NCBI GenBank assembly: GCA_027624855.1
Contig: JAQBTQ010000016.1
Coordinates: 1-61,548, forward strand
Length of the DNA stretch: 61,548 bases
Source of the DNA: Bacteroidota bacterium
GTDB lineage: Bacteria > Bacteroidota > Bacteroidia > Flavobacteriales_D > Sanyastnellaceae
Direction: 5' to 3'
Shown here: one piece after another, positions 3,039-12,443 of the stretch
Layout of the letters: the number at the start of each line of letters is the position of its first letter
Position numbering within the stretch: the stretch's first letter is position 1
Made by a program: the position numbers and the translations under genes
The notes under the pieces: generated by a model
The model's input: only the letters and a program-made list of their open reading frames with translations
What the model was told of the DNA's origin: nothing
The model's database searches: none

Positions 3039-4610
3039 TCACAACAAGTAATGCATTGACGAAAATGAAGAGTGGCCTCCAGCGATCACTTCTTCCATCA
3101 ACGATTGCTCTTTATCCGATGAAGCAACCAACGTGCGAATGGAAAATGACCGCAATGCGGCTTTCACACTTAAGGTTGCTACCGCACTGTCCTTTCGCCC
3201 CGTGAATGGCAATGAATCGGGGCCCCTTTGACATGAAGCATTGATGTTTACTCGGCACACCTGATTCACCATGTGGTCGATGCAGTGACCCGCTGTTTCC
3301 GCGTTTTGAGTAAAAATACTGACTTGTTGTCCGTAATCGCTTTCAGCGATATCGGTAAGAACCTCTTCAAAATCTTGAAAATCAAGTACCGGGCATACCG
3401 GTCCAAATTGTTCTTCCTTGAAAATGGAAGTATCGCGATCCACGGGATGCAAAATCGCTGGAAAAAAGAGGTTACCATCAACTTCTCCTCCGCGTTGATT
3501 AACCACGCGCGCACCTTTGGCCAATGCTTCTGACACGTAATCCTGCATGTACCCTACTTTCCCTTTTTCAGGCAAAGGCGTGACGTCCGCATCGTCAAAT
3601 GGGCTGCCGGACTTGAGGTCATCGGTTGCTTTCGCAAATGCCTCCAAAAAAGTATCTCGGATGTCCTTATGCACGTACAAAACCTTCAACGCGGTGCACC
3701 TTTGTCCATTAAAGCTCCACGCTCCTTTCACACACTCCTTTACGGTCAGTTCAATGTCGGCGTCTGGAAAAATGACCGCCGGGTTTTTTGCTTCCAACCC
3801 CAGCACCTGACGCACCCGATTGGGTTTCGGATGCTGGCTGATGAGCGCATTGCTTGATTTACTGTTTCCGATCAAAGCCAGCACATCCACATGACCGGTC
3901 TTCATGATTGGCGATGCCAACGTTCGTCCCCTTCCAAAAATGATGTTGACCACTCCGGGCGGAAAACTTTGAGCAAACGCTTCGAGCAACGGAGTGATCA
4001 GGAGTACACCGTACTTAGCGGGTTTGAAAACACAGGTATTCCCCATAAGCAGTGCTGGTAGCAAAACGCAAAAGGTCTCATTCAACGGATAATTGAATGG
4101 ACCTAGGCAAAGCACCACACCGATGGGTCCCCTTCGAATTTGGGCCAAGGTTCCTTCGACTGAAGTGATATGACTTCCCTCTCGGTGAAGGTTTTTGTAT
4201 TCACGAATCGTGTCCCTGAGGTACTCAACGGTTCGATCAAATTCCTTCTCGGCATCCGATCGCTTTTTACAGATTTCCCACATCAACAGATTCACCACTT
4301 CCTCACGTTTCGGTTCCATAAGGCTGATGAACTTCTCCATGGATTTGATGCGCTCCGCAGCCGGGGCCGTTGGCCATTCTCCTCGACCGTGGTCATAGGC
4401 TTTGCGCGCTGCTGCAAGCGCTTCAAGGCCCTGTTCTTCTTGTAGGTCGGGCGTGGTGCCGAGCAGCACAGCATCTCCTTCTGCAGAAAGGATGGGACTG
4501 AATACATCGGCCATTGAGCCGTTCCAATCCTTTAGCTGCCCATCAATCAGATAGGTTGTGTGCTTTCGTGTTTTTATGTTAGTCGCAATGGTCATGGAAT
4601 TGATAACCAT
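3039..4610 (-). CDS. NADP-dependent aldehyde dehydrogenase, GapN-like
   Basis: 523 residues of the aldehyde dehydrogenase superfamily, closest by motif to non-phosphorylating glyceraldehyde-3-phosphate dehydrogenase, which oxidises G3P to 3-phosphoglycerate and makes NADPH. Visible active-site residues: Asn173 (GPFNYPLNE), Glu273 (GLEAKNP) and nucleophile Cys305 ([10 protein letters not shown]); the GQRCTALK context is typical of GapN. Cytosolic, no signal peptide. An alternative start five codons in (4595, MTIATNIK) is equally plausible; neither has a clear ribosome site. Monocistronic. Substrate is inferred from motif, so another aldehyde remains possible. Confidence 0.85.
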
Positions 4611-4788
4611 TGCTTTACCGAAAAGGTTTTCACCTATTCAAGTAAGGTCACCGATGGCCCTACTACTGGAATAAAATGTAGCTGAGCATGTTAAAACCGA
4701 ATGGTGGTGTTATTTTCTTTGTAAAATTGAAAGATTCAAGTCTTGTTAGCATGTACTTGAATAATTGCCTTAAAGATTCTCAAATTCC

Positions 4789-5601
4789 ATGAAAAATCTC
4801 GCGCATTCTATTTTAGATAAAAAGTGGTTTGAGCCATTTATAATGGCCGTTATTCTAATCAATTGCACATTGATTGGTGTAGAAACCTATGTCCAACCAG
4901 AATGGATCATTTGGGTTCAGCAAATAGCACTGATCATCTTCGCAATTGAAATATGGTTGCGATGGGTTGCGCGAGATTCGGTCAAGTCGTTTTTTCGGGA
5001 TGGTTGGAATTGCTTTGATTTAGCAATCGTGCTGGTATCCTTGATTCCTGAATCGCTTTTTGAAGACACAAGCCTCATCATGAGCATCCGAATACTCAGG
5101 GTGTTCAGGGTATTGAGGTTACTGCGTGCGGCCAATGAAGTGAAATTGATTGTTTCTGTGCTGATTAAGTCTTTTTCGGCCCTAACATTCAATGGAATTT
5201 TCTTTTTCATTTTCATGTACTTGTTCTCTCTGATTGGTTTGAATCTTTTCAAATTACCAACCCATGACATAGCCGACGCAGAGACGCTTGATGTGCTCAC
5301 AGAGTATGCCGTTCTGGCTCCCCATGCGCCCGCGAATTCACCCGACCCATATGGCACGCTAAGCGAATCCATGTTCACTTTGTTTCGAATTTTGACGGGT
5401 GAAGATTGGACTGATTTGAGGTATAATCTCTGTGTCGCCAGTGATTTGGAGTTGATATCTGCATCGCCTAGCGTGATAACAACTTTCCATGTTTTGTGGT
5501 TTGTGCTCTCCGCATTCTTGCTTCTTAACCTATTGGTAGGAGCGATACTCAACAACTACCAAGTCATCATGGAAGAATCAAAGAATTCAAAGGACAATTG
5601 A
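4789..5601 (+). CDS. Single-domain voltage-gated cation channel (Nav/Cav type)
   Basis: 270 residues with the six-helix layout of one voltage-gated channel domain. S4 (about 99-114) has five Arg every third residue (R101, 104, 107, 110, 113). S5 is about 132-154, then a long outer loop, a pore helix and filter TGEDW at 203-207, and S6 at about 231-258. Prokaryotic sodium channels such as NaChBac carry TLESW; TGEDW matches the second repeat of eukaryotic calcium channels. Four subunits would make one pore. The C-terminal tail after S6 is very short. Ion selectivity cannot be told from sequence; Na+ or Ca2+ are the candidates. Transcribed alone. Confidence 0.85.
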   Translation: MKNLAHSILDKKWFEPFIMAVILINCTLIGVETYVQPEWIIWVQQIALIIFAIEIWLRWVARDSVKSFFRDGWNCFDLAIVLVSLIPESLFEDTSLIMSIRILRVFRVLRLLRAANEVKLIVSVLIKSFSALTFNGIFFFIFMYLFSLIGLNLFKLPTHDIADAETLDVLTEYAVLAPHAPANSPDPYGTLSESMFTLFRILTGEDWTDLRYNLCVASDLELISASPSVITTFHVLWFVLSAFLLLNLLVGAILNNYQVIMEESKNSKDN

Positions 5602-5734
5602 AAAACAACTTGATTCAAGCATGAATTTGAGTTGGCCAATAAGGGCAAGCGGCACTTCCGGTAGGTGGTGGGTAAGGAGAAGCGGAAAGCCACTTTTAGT
5701 GGTATGTTTGACATTGATCAATACCGAAATACCA

Positions 5735-6721
5735 ATGAAATGGTTCAGAGGAGCGATATGGGCATGCATGCTCATCACCGGTGGCGTTTGGAACACAATC
5801 AAGGCACAAGCCACCCCGAATGGCTCAAATGCCAGTGCAGTTGGTTCAATGGACACGCTCGTTGTTTCGCCTGCAGAATGGCTTATGCTCCAATTGACCA
5901 ATGGGAATTGGTTCTACGGAGAAGTGATTGAAAAAACGGACGCTACCATTGTTCTTAATACGGATATTTTGGGAAAGGTGACCATTCAAAAATTGGACAT
6001 CAAACGATCCATCTCGGGTCCGCTCACTGCTGCGGAACGTCAAGAAATTGAAGACAATGAACGCGCCAAAGACCAATTGATCGGCTTGAACAACTTGTGG
6101 CCTAGGGCAGCGTATGAGCCGGATCCCAACGCCACGCGTTATTTCTTCGCACCTTCGGCTTTCCAACTAAAACAAGGGGAAGCCTATTACCAAAATAGCT
6201 ATGGACTTTACAACCAAGCCAGCACGGGTGTATCCAATGAGTTTACAATAGGAACCAATATATTGGCCCCATTCGCGGTTGGATTTACTGCAAAATTTGG
6301 GGTTGAACTCAATTCCAAAGTGCACATCTCAGGAGGTGGGTTGGTAGCCTTCCCCTTTTGGGACTTAGACGACTCCTTCGGATTGGGGTTCGCCAATCTT
6401 ACCCTTGGATCCGAAAACTCAAACGTCACATTCACGTTGGGAACTGATTTCCAAAACAGTAGCATCCTCAATTTGAGTGCATTGCTTCCGTTGAATGATC
6501 AAACTTGGCTGATTACCGAAAACTACCGCATCACATCCCAATGGTATTGGGGGGACAACACCTACACCAATTACTATGGAATTGTTTCACTCGGGTTGCG
6601 CAGGTTTGCACAGCGTCGAGGATTTACATGGGATTACGCGCTTGTATTGTTGACCGATGAAGAGATGGTATTCCCGTTTTACAGTCTCACCATCCCCATC
6701 AAACCGAAATCAGAACGCTAG
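5735..6721 (+). CDS. Exported protein, probable outer-membrane beta structure
   Basis: 328 residues from the ATG at 5735, which puts a signal peptide at the N-terminus (MKWFRGAIWACMLITGG, cleavage near KAQA). The in-frame start 38 codons earlier would bury it. Residues about 45-90 form a small beta domain of the type DGxxxxGxVxxxTDxxIVLxTxxGKVTI. From about residue 125 come alternating amphipathic strands (FAPSAFQLKQGEAYYQN, then many Gly/Asn turns) ending in a basic tail, consistent with a porin-like barrel. No named family; such proteins recur in Bacteroidota. Follows the channel gene by 133 nt on the same strand. Confidence 0.7.
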   Translation: MKWFRGAIWACMLITGGVWNTIKAQATPNGSNASAVGSMDTLVVSPAEWLMLQLTNGNWFYGEVIEKTDATIVLNTDILGKVTIQKLDIKRSISGPLTAAERQEIEDNERAKDQLIGLNNLWPRAAYEPDPNATRYFFAPSAFQLKQGEAYYQNSYGLYNQASTGVSNEFTIGTNILAPFAVGFTAKFGVELNSKVHISGGGLVAFPFWDLDDSFGLGFANLTLGSENSNVTFTLGTDFQNSSILNLSALLPLNDQTWLITENYRITSQWYWGDNTYTNYYGIVSLGLRRFAQRRGFTWDYALVLLTDEEMVFPFYSLTIPIKPKSER

Positions 6722-6936: not shown

Positions 6937-9258
6937 ATGCGAATCGACCGAATTATTCGTTCCAAAACCAGTTCAATGATCCTGGTAGGACTGCTTTTTT
7001 CAGTGTTCAGTTTTCAGCTACAAGCCCAATGCACGCAGGCCGAAGAACCCATAGCACTATTCGAATTGGATGAACTTTCAGTAAGCGACTTGCCCACGGT
7101 TTTGGCGGAAAATTCTGTCGGACTAAAGCTCTCAGATGAAGCTTTTCAGGATTTGCGTGAACACAAATACAACGAGTGGACATTGATGCTTCCTTTTCTA
7201 AATGGTAAGACGTTGCCCGTAGAATTGGAATCATTTTTGCCGTTTTCAAGTGACTTCATGATTGGCCGAAGCCAAGCGAATGGAAAATTCATCGAAGAAA
7301 CCTATCGACCCAAACTTCTTTCCTATCGCATCGTTTCACCCGGTATGAAGGGCACCATTGTCATCATGGAAGAATTCGTCATCGGAACATTGCAATGGAA
7401 CAACCAGCAATTTGACATCAGCGCCATTCGAAACGGTGAAGACGGCCAACATGTGCTTTTCTTGTTAGCGGATGCCAATGCGACGATGGATTTTGAATGT
7501 GGTGTCGATGAATTCGGACCCCGAAGGGAAGTCATGCCCATGGGGCTCCAACCCAACACTTCGTCATCGCAAGTCACTGACTGTGTCGAAGTTGCAATCG
7601 ACATTGACTATCATACGTATGGTACGTTTGGGAATGATTGTTATCCAGCCGTTGAGTGGGCTTTGGCCATCATGGCAGGAGTCAACACGATTTACACCAA
7701 TGACCTGGACGCACTCATCAACATTCAAGCGTCATACATCCATGTATGGGAAACCACCGACCCTTACAATAGCTTTACCAATGACGCAGGTGGTATGCTC
7801 GATGCCTTTCGATTGGAATGGTTGAATAGCTCAAACTTCAGTGGTATCCAACGAGACATCGTTCACTTGCTTACCCGACGTCAAAACACCGGCACGGGGG
7901 GCATTGCCTACTTGGATGTCGTCTGCTTCCCCCAGTACGCAGCAGGTTTCAGTTCTTACCTAGGTCCAGAAACTACCTACAACCTCAACAACTACAGCTG
8001 GAACCTCAATGTAGTGGGCCACGAACTTGGGCACAATTTCGGATCGAACCACACGCACTGGTGTGGCTGGTCAAATGGACCAATCGATAACTGCTATGAT
8101 GTTGAAGGCTCATGTGCCAACAACCCTCAACCTCAAGTGGGAACCATGATGAGTTACTGCCATGCGGTTGCTGGTGGCTCAGTCAACCTAGAGTTCCACC
8201 CAACGGTAATCAGTGAAGCGTTTGTTCCAACAATCAATTCAGACGGAAACTGCTTCAACACGTGCGTTGACCTCACAACGAGTTGCCAATATTTTGGCTG
8301 CACCGACTCCGCAGCGTGCAATTACGATCCTGAAGCGGTTGAAGACGATGGCACATGTGCATACGAAGAAGACGGTTGTGGCGTTTGCGGAGGAGATAAT
8401 TCCTCTTGCTCTGGCTGCATGGATTCTGAAGCATGTAATTACGACCCCTCTGCGACAATAGACGACGGCTCCTGTTTCTACCCTCCTGCTGGAAGCACCT
8501 GCGATTGCGAATACACCGCTTCCTTCGATGTGAACTTGAGTGCCGGTGAAACGGCAAGTCAAACCATTGAAGCAGCCGGGTTCGTTACCGGGTTCTCCGC
8601 AGTGTTGGTCTTCCAAGACTCACCGCCTGATCAATCTTGGGCCAATGAGATGATGGTCGGCCTTACTGCACCAGATGGCACTTGCCTGCAATATGGCGGC
8701 TACAACCTCTCTTTGGGTTGTCCGAGCGCCGGTTTATGGCCAGGGGCATGGAACACTGCGGCGGCAGGAACCTATACTGCGACAGCAGTCTTCAGTGAAC
8801 CGATTTCTGGCGCCGGTGATTGGACCATAACAATCATGAATTCTTGGGCGTCTTCAATTGGAGCTTCTTATGAGACCTCGTTGACCTTTGACGGCCTTTG
8901 CGAGGGGCCGCTGTCCGTACCAGGATGCACGGATATTGGCGCGTGCAATTATGATGCTAATGCTACTGCTGATGATGGTTCATGTGAATACACCTCTTGT
9001 GCAGGTTGCACCGATCCAACAGCCTGCAACTACGATTCAGCCGCCACCGCAGATGACGGATCATGTGAATTCAGTTCATGCCTATGCCTAGGAGACCTCG
9101 ACGGGGATAATCAGGTGGCTGTATCGGACGTTTTGCTGTTCTTGAGCGACTTCGGTTGCACATTGGTGCCTTGCGTAGGAGATACTGACGGTGATGGATT
9201 GACAAACGTCAGTGACTTACTTGTTCTTCTGGCCAACTTCGGCAATAACTGCAATTGA
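6937..9258 (+). CDS. Secreted M12B-like zinc metalloprotease with P-domain and Cys repeats
   Basis: 773 residues. Signal peptide to about residue 31, then a propeptide-like region to about 210. The reprolysin-type catalytic domain (about 215-435) carries the metzincin zinc site HELGHNFGSNH (H362, E363, H366, H372) and a Met-turn (MMSYC, about 404-408). Next are two GCxDSxACNYDP repeats (about 453-515), a proprotein-convertase P-like beta domain (about 525-655), two more repeats, and two calcium-loop, dockerin-like motifs (DLDGDN, DTDGDG) to the end FGNNCN. It should hydrolyse proteins outside the cell. No type A T9SS domain is visible; the C-terminal module is shared with the two other repeat proteins here. 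Confidence 0.88.
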   Translation: MRIDRIIRSKTSSMILVGLLFSVFSFQLQAQCTQAEEPIALFELDELSVSDLPTVLAENSVGLKLSDEAFQDLREHKYNEWTLMLPFLNGKTLPVELESFLPFSSDFMIGRSQANGKFIEETYRPKLLSYRIVSPGMKGTIVIMEEFVIGTLQWNNQQFDISAIRNGEDGQHVLFLLADANATMDFECGVDEFGPRREVMPMGLQPNTSSSQVTDCVEVAIDIDYHTYGTFGNDCYPAVEWALAIMAGVNTIYTNDLDALINIQASYIHVWETTDPYNSFTNDAGGMLDAFRLEWLNSSNFSGIQRDIVHLLTRRQNTGTGGIAYLDVVCFPQYAAGFSSYLGPETTYNLNNYSWNLNVVGHELGHNFGSNHTHWCGWSNGPIDNCYDVEGSCANNPQPQVGTMMSYCHAVAGGSVNLEFHPTVISEAFVPTINSDGNCFNTCVDLTTSCQYFGCTDSAACNYDPEAVEDDGTCAYEEDGCGVCGGDNSSCSGCMDSEACNYDPSATIDDGSCFYPPAGSTCDCEYTASFDVNLSAGETASQTIEAAGFVTGFSAVLVFQDSPPDQSWANEMMVGLTAPDGTCLQYGGYNLSLGCPSAGLWPGAWNTAAAGTYTATAVFSEPISGAGDWTITIMNSWASSIGASYETSLTFDGLCEGPLSVPGCTDIGACNYDANATADDGSCEYTSCAGCTDPTACNYDSAATADDGSCEFSSCLCLGDLDGDNQVAVSDVLLFLSDFGCTLVPCVGDTDGDGLTNVSDLLVLLANFGNNCN

Positions 9259-9895: not shown

Positions 9896-10228
9896 GTGAA
9901 AGGTCAAGCCGTAGATATTTCAGCCGAACAACTTGAGCGTGTAGCAAAGGTGCTCAAAACCATCGCTCATCCCGTCAAGCTGCAAATTCTGTCCATTTTA
10001 GCCGAAGAAGCACCGATGGATGTGACCAGCTTGTGTGCTCGTGTAGGGATGGGCTGTCAAATCTCCATGATGTCTCACCATTTGGCGAAAATGAAAGACA
10101 ATGGAGTATTGGTTTCAGAAAAATCCGGAAAGCAAGTTTATTATCGAGTGGCTGACAAGAACCTCCTGAATATTTTCAATTGCATTAGCCTTGAAAAGCC
10201 TTTTCAATTAACTAATCAAGAACCCTGA
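9896..10228 (+). CDS. ArsR/SmtB-family regulator, probably persulfide-sensing
   Basis: 110 residues from a GTG start. Winged-helix ArsR fold: helix AHPVKLQILSILAEE, recognition region QISMMSHHLAKMKDNG (about 55-70) and wing GKQVYYRVAD. Cysteines at 47, 54 and 96 place thiols near the recognition helix and in the C-terminal helix, as in the sulfide-responsive BigR/SqrR branch, which forms a disulfide or polysulfide bridge. Its neighbours, an exporter and a persulfide dioxygenase, fit that role better than arsenic or zinc. It likely represses its own operon through the dyad in its promoter. Metal sensing is the alternative. Confidence 0.82.
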   Translation: MKGQAVDISAEQLERVAKVLKTIAHPVKLQILSILAEEAPMDVTSLCARVGMGCQISMMSHHLAKMKDNGVLVSEKSGKQVYYRVADKNLLNIFNCISLEKPFQLTNQEP

Positions 10229-10230
10229 GT

Positions 10231-11022
10231 ATGGAAATTTTAGGTTACGCAATGGCATTGGTCATTGGTGTTTCGTTGGGACTTATCGGAGGTGGAGGAT
10301 CCATCCTGGCGGTGCCTGTGCTCGCTTATCTTTTTGCGCTTGACGAAAAGATTGCAACAGCCTACTCTTTATTCGTGGTGGGTTCGGCCGCACTGGTGGG
10401 TGGACTGAGGCAGCATTCGAATCAAAATGTCGATTGGCGCACGGCCATCGTCTTTGGAATCCCGGCAATCATCGGTGTCTGGCTCGTGAGGCACTTCGTT
10501 GTTCCCGCACTTCCGGATGTGTTAATTCATGCCGGTGAATTTGCTTTCACGCGCCGCATGGGGATGTTCGGTCTGTTTTCAATTTTGATGGTTTGGGCAG
10601 CTTGGTCCATGTTGTCGTCGAAAGAACGCAAAAGCGGTTCGGGCGAAGTGAAATACAATTACTCACTGATATTATTCGAAGGGCTTTTGGTGGGTGGCAT
10701 CACGGGTTTGGTTGGAGCTGGAGGTGGATTTCTCATTATCCCTGCACTGGTCATTCTGGCCAACTTGGAAATCAAGAAAGCCATAGGCACTTCATTGATG
10801 ATCATTGCTTTGAAGTCTTTGATGGGTTTCTTTTTGGGCGACGCATTGACGACACAAATCGACTGGCCTTTTCTGCTTCAGTTCACCGCAATAGCCATTG
10901 CTGGAATATTCGGTGGTGTATACATCGGGAACTTCATCGATGGTAAAAAACTTAAAAAAGGATTTGGCTATTTCATCATTGCCATGGCCTTCTTCATCTT
11001 TACAATGGAATTCATTATTTAA
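10231..11022 (+). CDS. TauE/SafE-family sulfite or sulfur-anion exporter
   Basis: 263 residues with about eight membrane segments and the internal duplication of this family: GLIGGGGSILAVPVLAYL (about 18-35) and GLVGAGGGFLIIPALVIL (about 167-184). The family moves sulfite, sulfoacetate or other small sulfur anions across the inner membrane. It starts 2 nt after the regulator's stop and ends 11 nt before the persulfide dioxygenase, so the three form an operon. Export of sulfite or thiosulfate made by the downstream enzyme is the likely job. The arrangement resembles the staphylococcal cst operon, where a TauE gene accompanies cstB. Confidence 0.85.
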   Translation: MEILGYAMALVIGVSLGLIGGGGSILAVPVLAYLFALDEKIATAYSLFVVGSAALVGGLRQHSNQNVDWRTAIVFGIPAIIGVWLVRHFVVPALPDVLIHAGEFAFTRRMGMFGLFSILMVWAAWSMLSSKERKSGSGEVKYNYSLILFEGLLVGGITGLVGAGGGFLIIPALVILANLEIKKAIGTSLMIIALKSLMGFFLGDALTTQIDWPFLLQFTAIAIAGIFGGVYIGNFIDGKKLKKGFGYFIIAMAFFIFTMEFII

Positions 11023-11033
11023 CCTATTCGATC

Positions 11034-12443
11034 ATGAAAATCGAACAGATCTACACTGGTTGTCTGGCACAAGGTGCTTACTACATTCACAGCAAAGGTG
11101 AAGGTGTCATCATTGACCCTTTACGCGAAGTGCAACCCTATATCGATCGCGCAGAAGCTGACGGTGTAAAAATCAAATATGTGCTCGAAACGCATTTTCA
11201 CGCAGACTTTGTGAGCGGTCACGTTACGCTGGCAGAAAAAACTGGAGCGACGATTGTGTACGGACCCAATGCGAGCACCTCATTCGATGCGCACATCGCA
11301 AAAGACGGAGAAACACTCCATGTGGGAGATGTCACCATTCACGTATTGCACACGCCTGGTCACACCATGGAAAGCACCACCTACTTGCTTCGAGATCAAG
11401 ACGGAAAAGACATAGCCATCTTTACTGGGGACACCCTGTTCCTTGGAGATGTGGGGCGTCCTGACCTCGCCCAGAAATCAGAGAGCATGACCCAAGAAGA
11501 TTTGGCAAGCATTCTTTTTGACAGCCTCCGAGAAAAAATCATGCCTCTAGCTGATGACGTTACCGTATATCCTGCGCATGGTGCTGGTTCTGCGTGTGGA
11601 AAGAATATGATGAAAGAGACGGTGGATACATTGGGCAATCAAAAGCGCATGAACTACGCCTTGCGTGCCGACATGACGCGTGAAGAATTTGTCGCAGAAG
11701 TGACCGACGGCCTTATGCCACCTCCCGGGTACTTCCCCCTCAATGTAAAAATGAACAAAGAAGGATACGAGTCCATCGATCAAGTGTTGCACCGCGGGTT
11801 GGAAGCGCTCTCTCCAAATGCTTTTGAAGCTGTTGCAAACGAGACCGAAGCACTCGTTTTGGATGTTCGCTCGCCACAAGAATTCGCCAACGGTCATATT
11901 CCTGGAAGCATCTTCATCGGAATCAACGGAAACTTTGCGCCGTGGGTTGGTGAACTCATCATCGATGTCAATACCAGCATCATACTGGTCGCGCCGGAAG
12001 GCCGTGAAGAGGAGGTTGTCACTCGCCTTTCACGAGTAGGTTTCGACAAGACATACGGATACCTCAAGGGCGGCATTGATGCTTGGCTCGCAGCCGGCAA
12101 AGAAATCGACACCGTGAAGTCCGTGCCCGCTACTGAAATGGCCGCTAGTTATGAGGCCTATGCAGACCGCATCTTCGATGTCCGCAAACCCGGAGAGCAC
12201 CTGTCTGAGCATGTATTAAATGCCCACCACACGCCATTAAGCAGCCTCAACGACCATCTTGCTGAATTCCCACAAGACGGCGAATTCTTCGTGCACTGTG
12301 CAGGTGGTTACCGCTCCATGATTGCCGCTTCAATTTTGAAGTCGAGAGGCATCCACAACATGATTGATGTCCAAGGTGGATACGGGGCCATCAAGGAAAC
12401 GAGCGCTCCGAAGTCGGATTACGTCTGCCCTTCAACGCTCTGA
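11034..12443 (+). CDS. Persulfide dioxygenase-rhodanese fusion, CstB-like
   Basis: 469 residues. The N-terminal metallo-beta-lactamase domain (1 to about 250) has the mononuclear iron site of persulfide dioxygenases: ETHFHADFVSGH (H54, H56, D58, H63), HTPGHT, FTGDTLFLGDVGR and PAHGAG. Two rhodanese domains follow. The first (about 265-360) has VAPEG where the catalytic Cys loop should be, so it is probably inactive. The second (about 375-465) keeps the Cys in HCAGGYRS. Family knowledge: oxidises glutathione, CoA or bacillithiol persulfide and transfers sulfur, yielding sulfite or thiosulfate. Bacillithiol persulfide is a reasonable substrate because BshB1 is encoded in the window. A terminator follows. 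Confidence 0.88.
   Translation: MKIEQIYTGCLAQGAYYIHSKGEGVIIDPLREVQPYIDRAEADGVKIKYVLETHFHADFVSGHVTLAEKTGATIVYGPNASTSFDAHIAKDGETLHVGDVTIHVLHTPGHTMESTTYLLRDQDGKDIAIFTGDTLFLGDVGRPDLAQKSESMTQEDLASILFDSLREKIMPLADDVTVYPAHGAGSACGKNMMKETVDTLGNQKRMNYALRADMTREEFVAEVTDGLMPPPGYFPLNVKMNKEGYESIDQVLHRGLEALSPNAFEAVANETEALVLDVRSPQEFANGHIPGSIFIGINGNFAPWVGELIIDVNTSIILVAPEGREEEVVTRLSRVGFDKTYGYLKGGIDAWLAAGKEIDTVKSVPATEMAASYEAYADRIFDVRKPGEHLSEHVLNAHHTPLSSLNDHLAEFPQDGEFFVHCAGGYRSMIAASILKSRGIHNMIDVQGGYGAIKETSAPKSDYVCPSTL

Follow-up and report, generated by a model that had tools for sequence, protein, structure and literature searches.

A gene from a Bacteroidota genome (Table 1) encodes a 270-amino-acid protein that, judged by its sequence, is a member of a distinct clade of voltage-gated, single-domain channels whose selectivity filter resembles that of repeat II of eukaryotic calcium channels. 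The gene lies in the window, by which we mean the whole stretch of 61,548 nucleotides that was analysed and which opens contig 5 in a genome of 2.29 Mb (40 contigs, 96.6% complete). Its filter reads TGEDW (T203-G204-E205-D206-W207, codons 5395–5409), or TGEDWTD in full. We propose that four identical subunits form a voltage-gated, calcium-permeable cation channel, a reading in which we place as much belief as doubt.

The family would provide a small, naturally occurring pore of four-fold symmetry, each subunit of which has the filter of one animal calcium-channel repeat. The family bears on whether a channel becomes selective for calcium or is merely blocked by it when an Asp adjoins the filter Glu, a question to which the channels NavAb and NavPp give conflicting answers, and also on what a Gly at position 2 adds. 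Measurements on a family channel could reveal how pores of this kind discriminate between calcium and sodium. If Ca2+ does pass, there would be voltage-driven Ca2+ entry in Bacteroidota of animal guts, which would be unexpected.

A literature search that mostly lay outside subscription journals found no study of a TGEDW bacterial channel family, found the TGEDW motif for Cav1.2 only (in the portion of PMC4436565 at hand) and found nothing joining BacNav/NaChBac-type channels with Bacteroidetes. The available portions of the filter review PMC10120453 and of the four-domain survey PMC5824947 do not mention the family.

Gene, domain and predicted fold

The open frame has no internal stop, and its product matches the Pfam domain Ion_trans (PF00520) over residues 12–264 with an E value of 1.3e-42 (146.1 bits versus a curated cut-off of 25). 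No NCBIfam model comes near its cut-off for this protein, and a protein search of the source genome returns a single match. The AlphaFold2 model, made from an alignment of 72 rows, has a mean pLDDT of 93.9 and a pTM of 0.77. It contains helices S1–S4, S5, P1, P2 and S6, together with an extra helix in the turret between S5 and P1.

Table 1 Features of the channel gene in the window, and a gene set adjoining the channel at three other loci
Feature	Position	Strand	Basis
Single-domain voltage-gated cation channel gene, 270 aa	4789..5601	+	Open frame, Pfam
S1–S3 of voltage sensor, residues 14–85	4828..5043	+	AlphaFold2 helices, column counts
S4, residues 94–114	5068..5130	+	Sequence, AlphaFold2 helix 94–114, column counts
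S4–S5 linker and S5, residues 116–154	5134..5250	+	AlphaFold2
Long S5–P1 turret, residues 155–190, predicted helix 164–176, family motif SPDPYG	5251..5358	+	AlphaFold2, column counts
P1 pore helix, residues 191–202, holds Glu193	5359..5394	+	AlphaFold2, column counts
Selectivity filter T203-G-E-D-W-T-D209	5395..5415	+	Sequence
P2 helix, residues 207–219, with Arg211, Y212 and N213	5407..5445	+	AlphaFold2, column counts
S6, residues 227–269, with Trp237, N247 and short tail	5467..5595	+	AlphaFold2, column counts
SPFH/GYF_2/zinc-ribbon set	L008:179-3644; L012:496-3432; L055:4730-7930		

Residue conservation was counted in an alignment of 43 family rows and 29 other bacterial channels, with loci L096 and L109 left out. 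The S4 helix has five Arg residues, one at every third position: R101 and R104 (43/43 family rows each), R107 (39/43), R110 (42/43) and R113 (38/43). The S2 and S3 acids E54 and D77 are present in all 43 family rows and in 29/29 of the other channels, and F51 occurs in 41 of the 43 family rows; residues of this kind form the charge-transfer centre. Conservation of the five S4 Arg residues and the S2/S3 acids points to a working voltage sensor. These residues and the Ion_trans match agree with the original prediction of a single-domain voltage-gated channel. The frame is intact in the relatives examined except at locus L027 (positions 4001–4747), where an in-frame stop leaves an open frame of 183 amino acids within a match spanning residues 22–270.

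Among solved structures, VIA-align places NavAb nearest (6mvy_A, Z 17.9, rmsd 2.3 over 215 residues), followed by a CatSper chain (7eeb_C, Z 17.3) and NavEh (7x5v_A, Z 17.0), with the NavAb mutants of a Ca2+-selectivity study at Z 16.8–17.0; we treat entries within one Z unit as tied. Foldseek lists a CatSper chain at the top and then NavAb and NavMs chains. A whole-chain PDB sequence search ranks eukaryotic channels first, an order that we rejected as misleading because it sums repeats; per domain, bacterial chains come out on top by a modest margin. Specifically, S1–S5 best match the bacterial chain 4dxw, which we take to be NavRh, at 78.7 bits. Among the matches listed, the best Cav repeat reaches 52.8 bits (five chains) and NavAb chains, at 52.7–54.1 bits, score no better. 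For the pore, the bacterial chain 4p2z leads with 29.8 bits, NavAb chains score about 20–22 and the best L-type repeat among the matches listed scores 20.8.

Conservation of the filter

A scan of a sequence collection confirmed 98 loci, the best 80 of which encode relatives of 38–64% identity. By their titles, these 80 come mostly from Bacteroidales bins, many from animal guts, and the other hosts are Saprospira/Aureispira, two of deltaproteobacterial type, Methylococcales, Sulfurimonas, SAR324 and a few more. The best 80 and the window together give 81 loci, of which 75 carry TGEDW, four TAEDW and one TGDDW, with the filter of the prematurely stopped L027 left uncalled. For the trees and for a count of distinct genes, six rows were dropped: L027, four partial or broken rows (L054, L067, L107 and L111) and a repeat of the window (L084). 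After removal of these rows and of duplicates, the best 80 of the 98 loci and others added later comprise 78 distinct genes including that of the window, with filters TGEDWTD (72 genes), TAEDWTD (four), TGDDWTD (one) and TGDDWAG (one). Position 2 is Gly in 74 of these genes and Ala in four, and D4 and W5 are present in 78/78. The TGEDW originally read at residues 203–207 is confirmed. In the naming used in the available portion of PMC10120453, Glu205 occupies the high-field-strength position and Asp206 the ‘beacon’ position. The acidic filter positions are nearly constant in the column counts as well (E/D205 43/43, D206 43/43 and D209 42/43).

The 78-gene sample is biased, in that one search seed was EDWTDLRY and 66/78 genes carry only that seed; Thr203 and Gly204 fall outside it. 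Because of this bias, we also searched 247 genomes from the bacterial family of locus L039 with a pore-blind profile of residues 1–155 (S1–S5) at a threshold of 1e-10. Matches occur in 24/247 genomes. Nineteen are family members (16 TGEDW and three TAEDW) scoring at least 234 bits, a number that counts in the centre genome as well as a copy truncated at the start of its contig and that may overlap in part with the 78 genes. The other five (three TLESW, one TVEGW and one TIEGW) reach at most about 82 bits. A full-length profile, against which members stand out at 285 bits or more versus at most about 132, finds five members (centre included) in 295 Bacteroidales genomes, with four TGEDW filters and one TGDDW. 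Since the motif is kept across the family, its presence there is beyond chance. Close relatives bearing TLESW, which the original prediction held to count against it, appear neither among the 78 genes (best 80 of 98 loci plus later ones) nor among the five Bacteroidales members or the 19 pore-blind members. Other single-domain channels in sampled Bacteroidota (loci L085–L113) carry TLESW, TLEDW, TLEGW, TLENW, TGDGW, TGDDW or TFDDW.

Family features outside the filter

The stretch from F154 at the end of S5 to T203 spans 48 residues in the window protein, close to the long loop of about 45 first claimed, and 48–49 residues in 33/43 family rows. It measures 29–35 residues in the other ten, and the 29 other bacterial channels have a median of 22 (21–27). 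Glu193 is present in 43/43 family rows versus 0/29 others, Arg211 in 42/43 (with Lys in the remaining row) versus 0/29, and Asn213 in 42/43 versus 1/29; Trp237, invariant in the family (43/43), is replaced by Phe in 29/29 others. Gly at filter position 2 is found in 4/29 other channels, including those of loci L104 and L106. The tail after NNYQ has 12 residues in the window protein and 12–51 in 99 family-filter rows (duplicates included). Such short tails would leave little room in most members for a long NaChBac-type coiled coil, as suggested at the outset.

Phylogenetic position

We built three maximum-likelihood trees, all without NavPp, CavMr, NavAb, CatSper, EukCat and protist channels and with any eukaryotic repeats taken from mammals only. 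Tree 1 contains 26 family rows and 31/39 other representatives at 85 bits or more, after clustering at 75% identity, and tree 2 leaves out the eukaryotic rows and loci L096 and L109. Tree 3 has 16 family, 14 AnclNav-type, six canonical, five TVEGW-type, three potassium-channel and 11 eukaryotic rows; among the eukaryotic ones, five cover voltage-sensor parts only. All three trees have a branch, supported at 100/100, that splits the family from the remaining rows, and its stem is long (0.96 to 1.73 changes per column). The backbone is without resolution in each, and in tree 3 the TVEGW-type and potassium channels sit on long branches that join.

Six rows labelled canonical (three TLESW, two TLEGW and one TLENW) form their own clade without the family, with support of 100/95, 100/99 and 97/97. 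This label and that of AnclNav-type rest on filter and tree place, with no reference channel among the rows. The AnclNav-type rows, whose filters include TLEDW, TLEGW, TFEDW, TFDDW and others, are set apart from the family. Support for a group of the two, at 54/79 in tree 3, from which NavPp and CavMr are absent, neither establishes nor rejects it, and a clade of AnclNav-type rows without the family has a p-AU of 0.402 in tree 2. Loci L104 (TGEDWPE) and L106 (TGDDWGN) carry Gly at position 2 on the AnclNav side, and on these trees this residue appears to have arisen more than once, although the test does not reject a clade of the family and L104 (P = 0.157, tree 2).

The TGEDW motif itself is indeed that of Cav repeat II, as originally predicted: it is seen in our Cav2.1 alignment and stated for Cav1.2 in the portion of PMC4436565 at hand. 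The predicted likeness to Cav repeat II holds at this level and not beyond it, nor is Gly2 peculiar to that repeat given its presence in L104 and L106. An origin of the gene or its motif from Cav repeat II was considered and discarded, because the AU test rejects a clade of the family and repeat II (p-AU 0.0124). TGEDW in the two is best read as parallel. Placing the family with all eukaryotic repeats gives a likelihood equal to that of the free tree (p-AU 0.511 and 0.502, with long branches and mammalian repeats only), and kinship with those repeats together is a mere possibility. The proposed check by phylogeny has accordingly returned a well-supported separate clade without nesting in repeat II, on a backbone that stays unresolved.

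Distribution and genomic context

The family has a patchy distribution. The full-length profile detects a member in 1/394 sampled genomes of the window's phylum (completeness floor 80) and in 1/349 of the phylum of locus L074, in each case the genome of origin itself, and in 5/295 of the Bacteroidales. The pore-blind profile gives 19/247 for the bacterial family of L039. A protein search of 60 genomes including the window's yields two further matches, both weak (27% and 20% identity), and the channel protein has no match in 21 congeners. In the congener G014, a counterpart of the window gene at 5621–6721 (45% identity) lies 83 bp from the presumed counterpart, judged by eye, of the gene at 11–1030, and the channel and the aldehyde dehydrogenase are both missing from the interval. 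Either gain by transfer in the lineage of the window or loss among its relatives would fit this arrangement; because the distribution is patchy, transfer seems the likelier. The scan of a viral contig collection revealed no relative of the channel, and among 12 matches in plasmid records, none of the 10 listed exceeds 34.1% identity, which is less than the family range. The contig start probably truncates the window gene at 11–1030, since the counterpart in locus L175 has 382 amino acids and begins earlier.

An Aureispira genome (G462) has two TGEDW paralogues (L125 and L131) and a more distant TIEGW channel (L137), and hetero-tetramers are conceivable there. Two contigs of one horse-faeces bin (L020:1132–1942 and L021:3999–4809) hold channel genes that are 99.75% identical over 811 bp, with identity covering little beyond the gene body and flanks without similarity, which reflects either a recent gene-body duplication or a mixed bin. 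At L034:3487–3701, part of the channel pore is present a second time, decayed and in two frames, just upstream of the intact gene.

Neighbouring genes were compared as stop-to-stop open reading frames of at least 100 amino acids around the best 80 of 98 loci and in the window; 52/80 loci are flanked by 3.9 kb or more on each side. No neighbour gene is common to most of these loci. A set of SPFH (Band_7), GYF_2 and zinc-ribbon genes adjoins the channel in the scattered loci L008, L012 and L055 (Table 1), where an SPFH-GYF_2 protein, a companion protein and a GYF_2 protein are all encoded within 4 kb of it. The companion combines a zinc ribbon and GYF_2 in L012 and has no Pfam match in L008 and L055. 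Single members or fragments of the set occur in L010, L021 (a GYF_2-like frame directly downstream of the channel), L030 and L031, for a total of 7/80 loci (best 80 of 98). Other recurring sets are frames overlapping the channel or are limited to close relatives. The set is absent from the window, and a search of the window genome with the L008 SPFH protein, itself of little weight, gave no match. Given its presence in 7/80 loci and absence from the window, we regard the set as a lead and not as a partner. Elsewhere in the window, an ArsR-type regulator, a TauE-type permease and a metallo-beta-lactamase/rhodanese fusion stand in a row at 9896–12443, which looks like a sulfur-handling operon. 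Positions 6937–9258 encode a large metalloprotease of the M12 type (reprolysin-like) in which GCTD..ACNYD segments recur.

Ion selectivity

If the protein assembles as a tetramer, the carboxylates of Glu205, Asp206 and Asp209, four of each, would form rings around the filter, partly offset by four Arg211 further out. These acid rings would hold Ca2+ at the pore mouth and exclude monovalent ions, and movement of S4 on depolarization would allow Ca2+ to pass. This model draws on the Ion_trans domain and on a confident structure model near NavAb, CatSper, NavEh and the NavAb mutants of Ca2+ selectivity, on the conserved S4 Arg residues and S2/S3 acids, and on a filter that is kept even among members found by the pore-blind search. 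It also draws on the review PMC10120453, in the available portion of which the change of the NavAb filter from TLESWSM to TLEDWSM (Tang 2014, taken as given there) is reported to raise permeability to Ca2+ over Na+ by about 100-fold, and channels that are calcium-selective or calcium-blocked are said to be marked by an Asp following the filter Glu. The family has three acids per subunit, as does CavAb (TLDDWSD).

Published bacterial data on calcium versus sodium nevertheless point both ways in the portions at hand of PMC10120453, PMC7041947 and PMC10349818. NavPp, whose TLEDWTD filter differs from that of the family at position 2 only, is permeable to Na+ and blocked by Ca2+ (PMC7041947). High Ca2+ selectivity of CavMr depends on Gly4, and the G4D change there has an effect opposite to that in NavAb (PMC7041947). 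The NavAb mutants L176G and L176A show divalent block, strongest in L176A, and L176N and L176Q are stated to have low Ca2+ permeability (PMC10349818). Gly and Ala are exactly the residues that the family has at position 2, and the NavPp and L176G/L176A results together favour a voltage-gated channel for Na+ in which divalent cations from outside restrict the current. In such a channel Asp206 and Asp209 would draw Ca2+ in, and at the inner end of the filter Gly204 would leave a gap filled with water, in which Ca2+ stalls. We hold this explanation to be possible but doubtful, since a position-4 Asp favours Ca2+ in NavAb, Gly2 and Asp4 occur together in repeat II of the calcium channel Cav2.1 and the available portions of the literature examined contain no measured channel with TGEDWTD in all four subunits.

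Arg211 also weighs against calcium permeation by removing charge, and no widely shared neighbour gene hints at calcium. With Gly204 and a wide mouth, Arg211 might cancel the extra acidic charge to leave a weakly selective cation channel, and Arg or Lys at this position in 43/43 family rows and in none of the 29 other bacterial channels fits that idea. It seems unlikely to us, given that the three acidic filter positions are nearly invariant and therefore suggest a specific ion site. We consider it very improbable that the protein is an ordinary canonical BacNav or AnclNav whose filter has drifted, with no special biology. The fold and S1–S5 are those of the superfamily, the tree backbone is without resolution and a grouping of AnclNav with the family, at 54/79, is neither established nor rejected; against this stand the near constancy of the filter over the clade, the long, fully supported stem and five diagnostic features outside the filter. 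The calcium-permeable channel remains our preferred reading.

Comparison with known channels

The characterized channels closest in kind are CavMr of Meiothermus ruber and NavPp of Plesiocystis pacifica, the AnclNav channels of Shimomura 2020 (PMC7041947, portion at hand), which like the family are single-domain bacterial channels apart from canonical BacNav. Among channels described in the available portions of the literature examined, CavMr alone is a native calcium channel from a prokaryote. The filters of NavPp and CavMr (TLEGWVD) depart from the TLESW type that had been ascribed to characterized bacterial channels in general. Like NavPp, the best-scoring non-family rows here carry TLEDWTD (locus L171, 170 bits). 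Compared with AnclNav, the family has Gly or Ala in place of Leu at position 2, Arg at position 9 and Trp237 in S6, a turret that is about 26 residues longer in 33/43 rows and 7–13 longer in ten, and a separate clade at 100/100 in trees from which NavPp and CavMr are absent. The family is not clearly AnclNav.

Canonical BacNav channels (NaChBac, NavAb and NavMs; TLESW) have the six-helix fold in common with the family, NavAb is the nearest structure and the best single-domain PDB sequence matches are bacterial for both S1–S5 and the pore. Filter, turret, tail and clade all differ, however, and on filter and clade the family is not canonical BacNav. Repeat II of eukaryotic Cav1/Cav2 channels has the same five-residue filter motif, and its longish S5–P1 loop (29–34 residues in Cav2.1, 3.1 and 3.3) is a further likeness, whereas the family protein is one 270-residue domain instead of four linked repeats and is not nested with repeat II. 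The engineered CavAb has Asp at positions 4 and 7, as the family does, but the family is native and has Glu instead of Asp at position 3, Gly at 2 and Arg at 9. CatSper and the eukaryotic single-domain NavEh resemble the family in structure alone, at Z about 17, and the CatSper3 filter, TVDGWTD in the portion of PMC7041947 at hand, differs from TGEDWTD.
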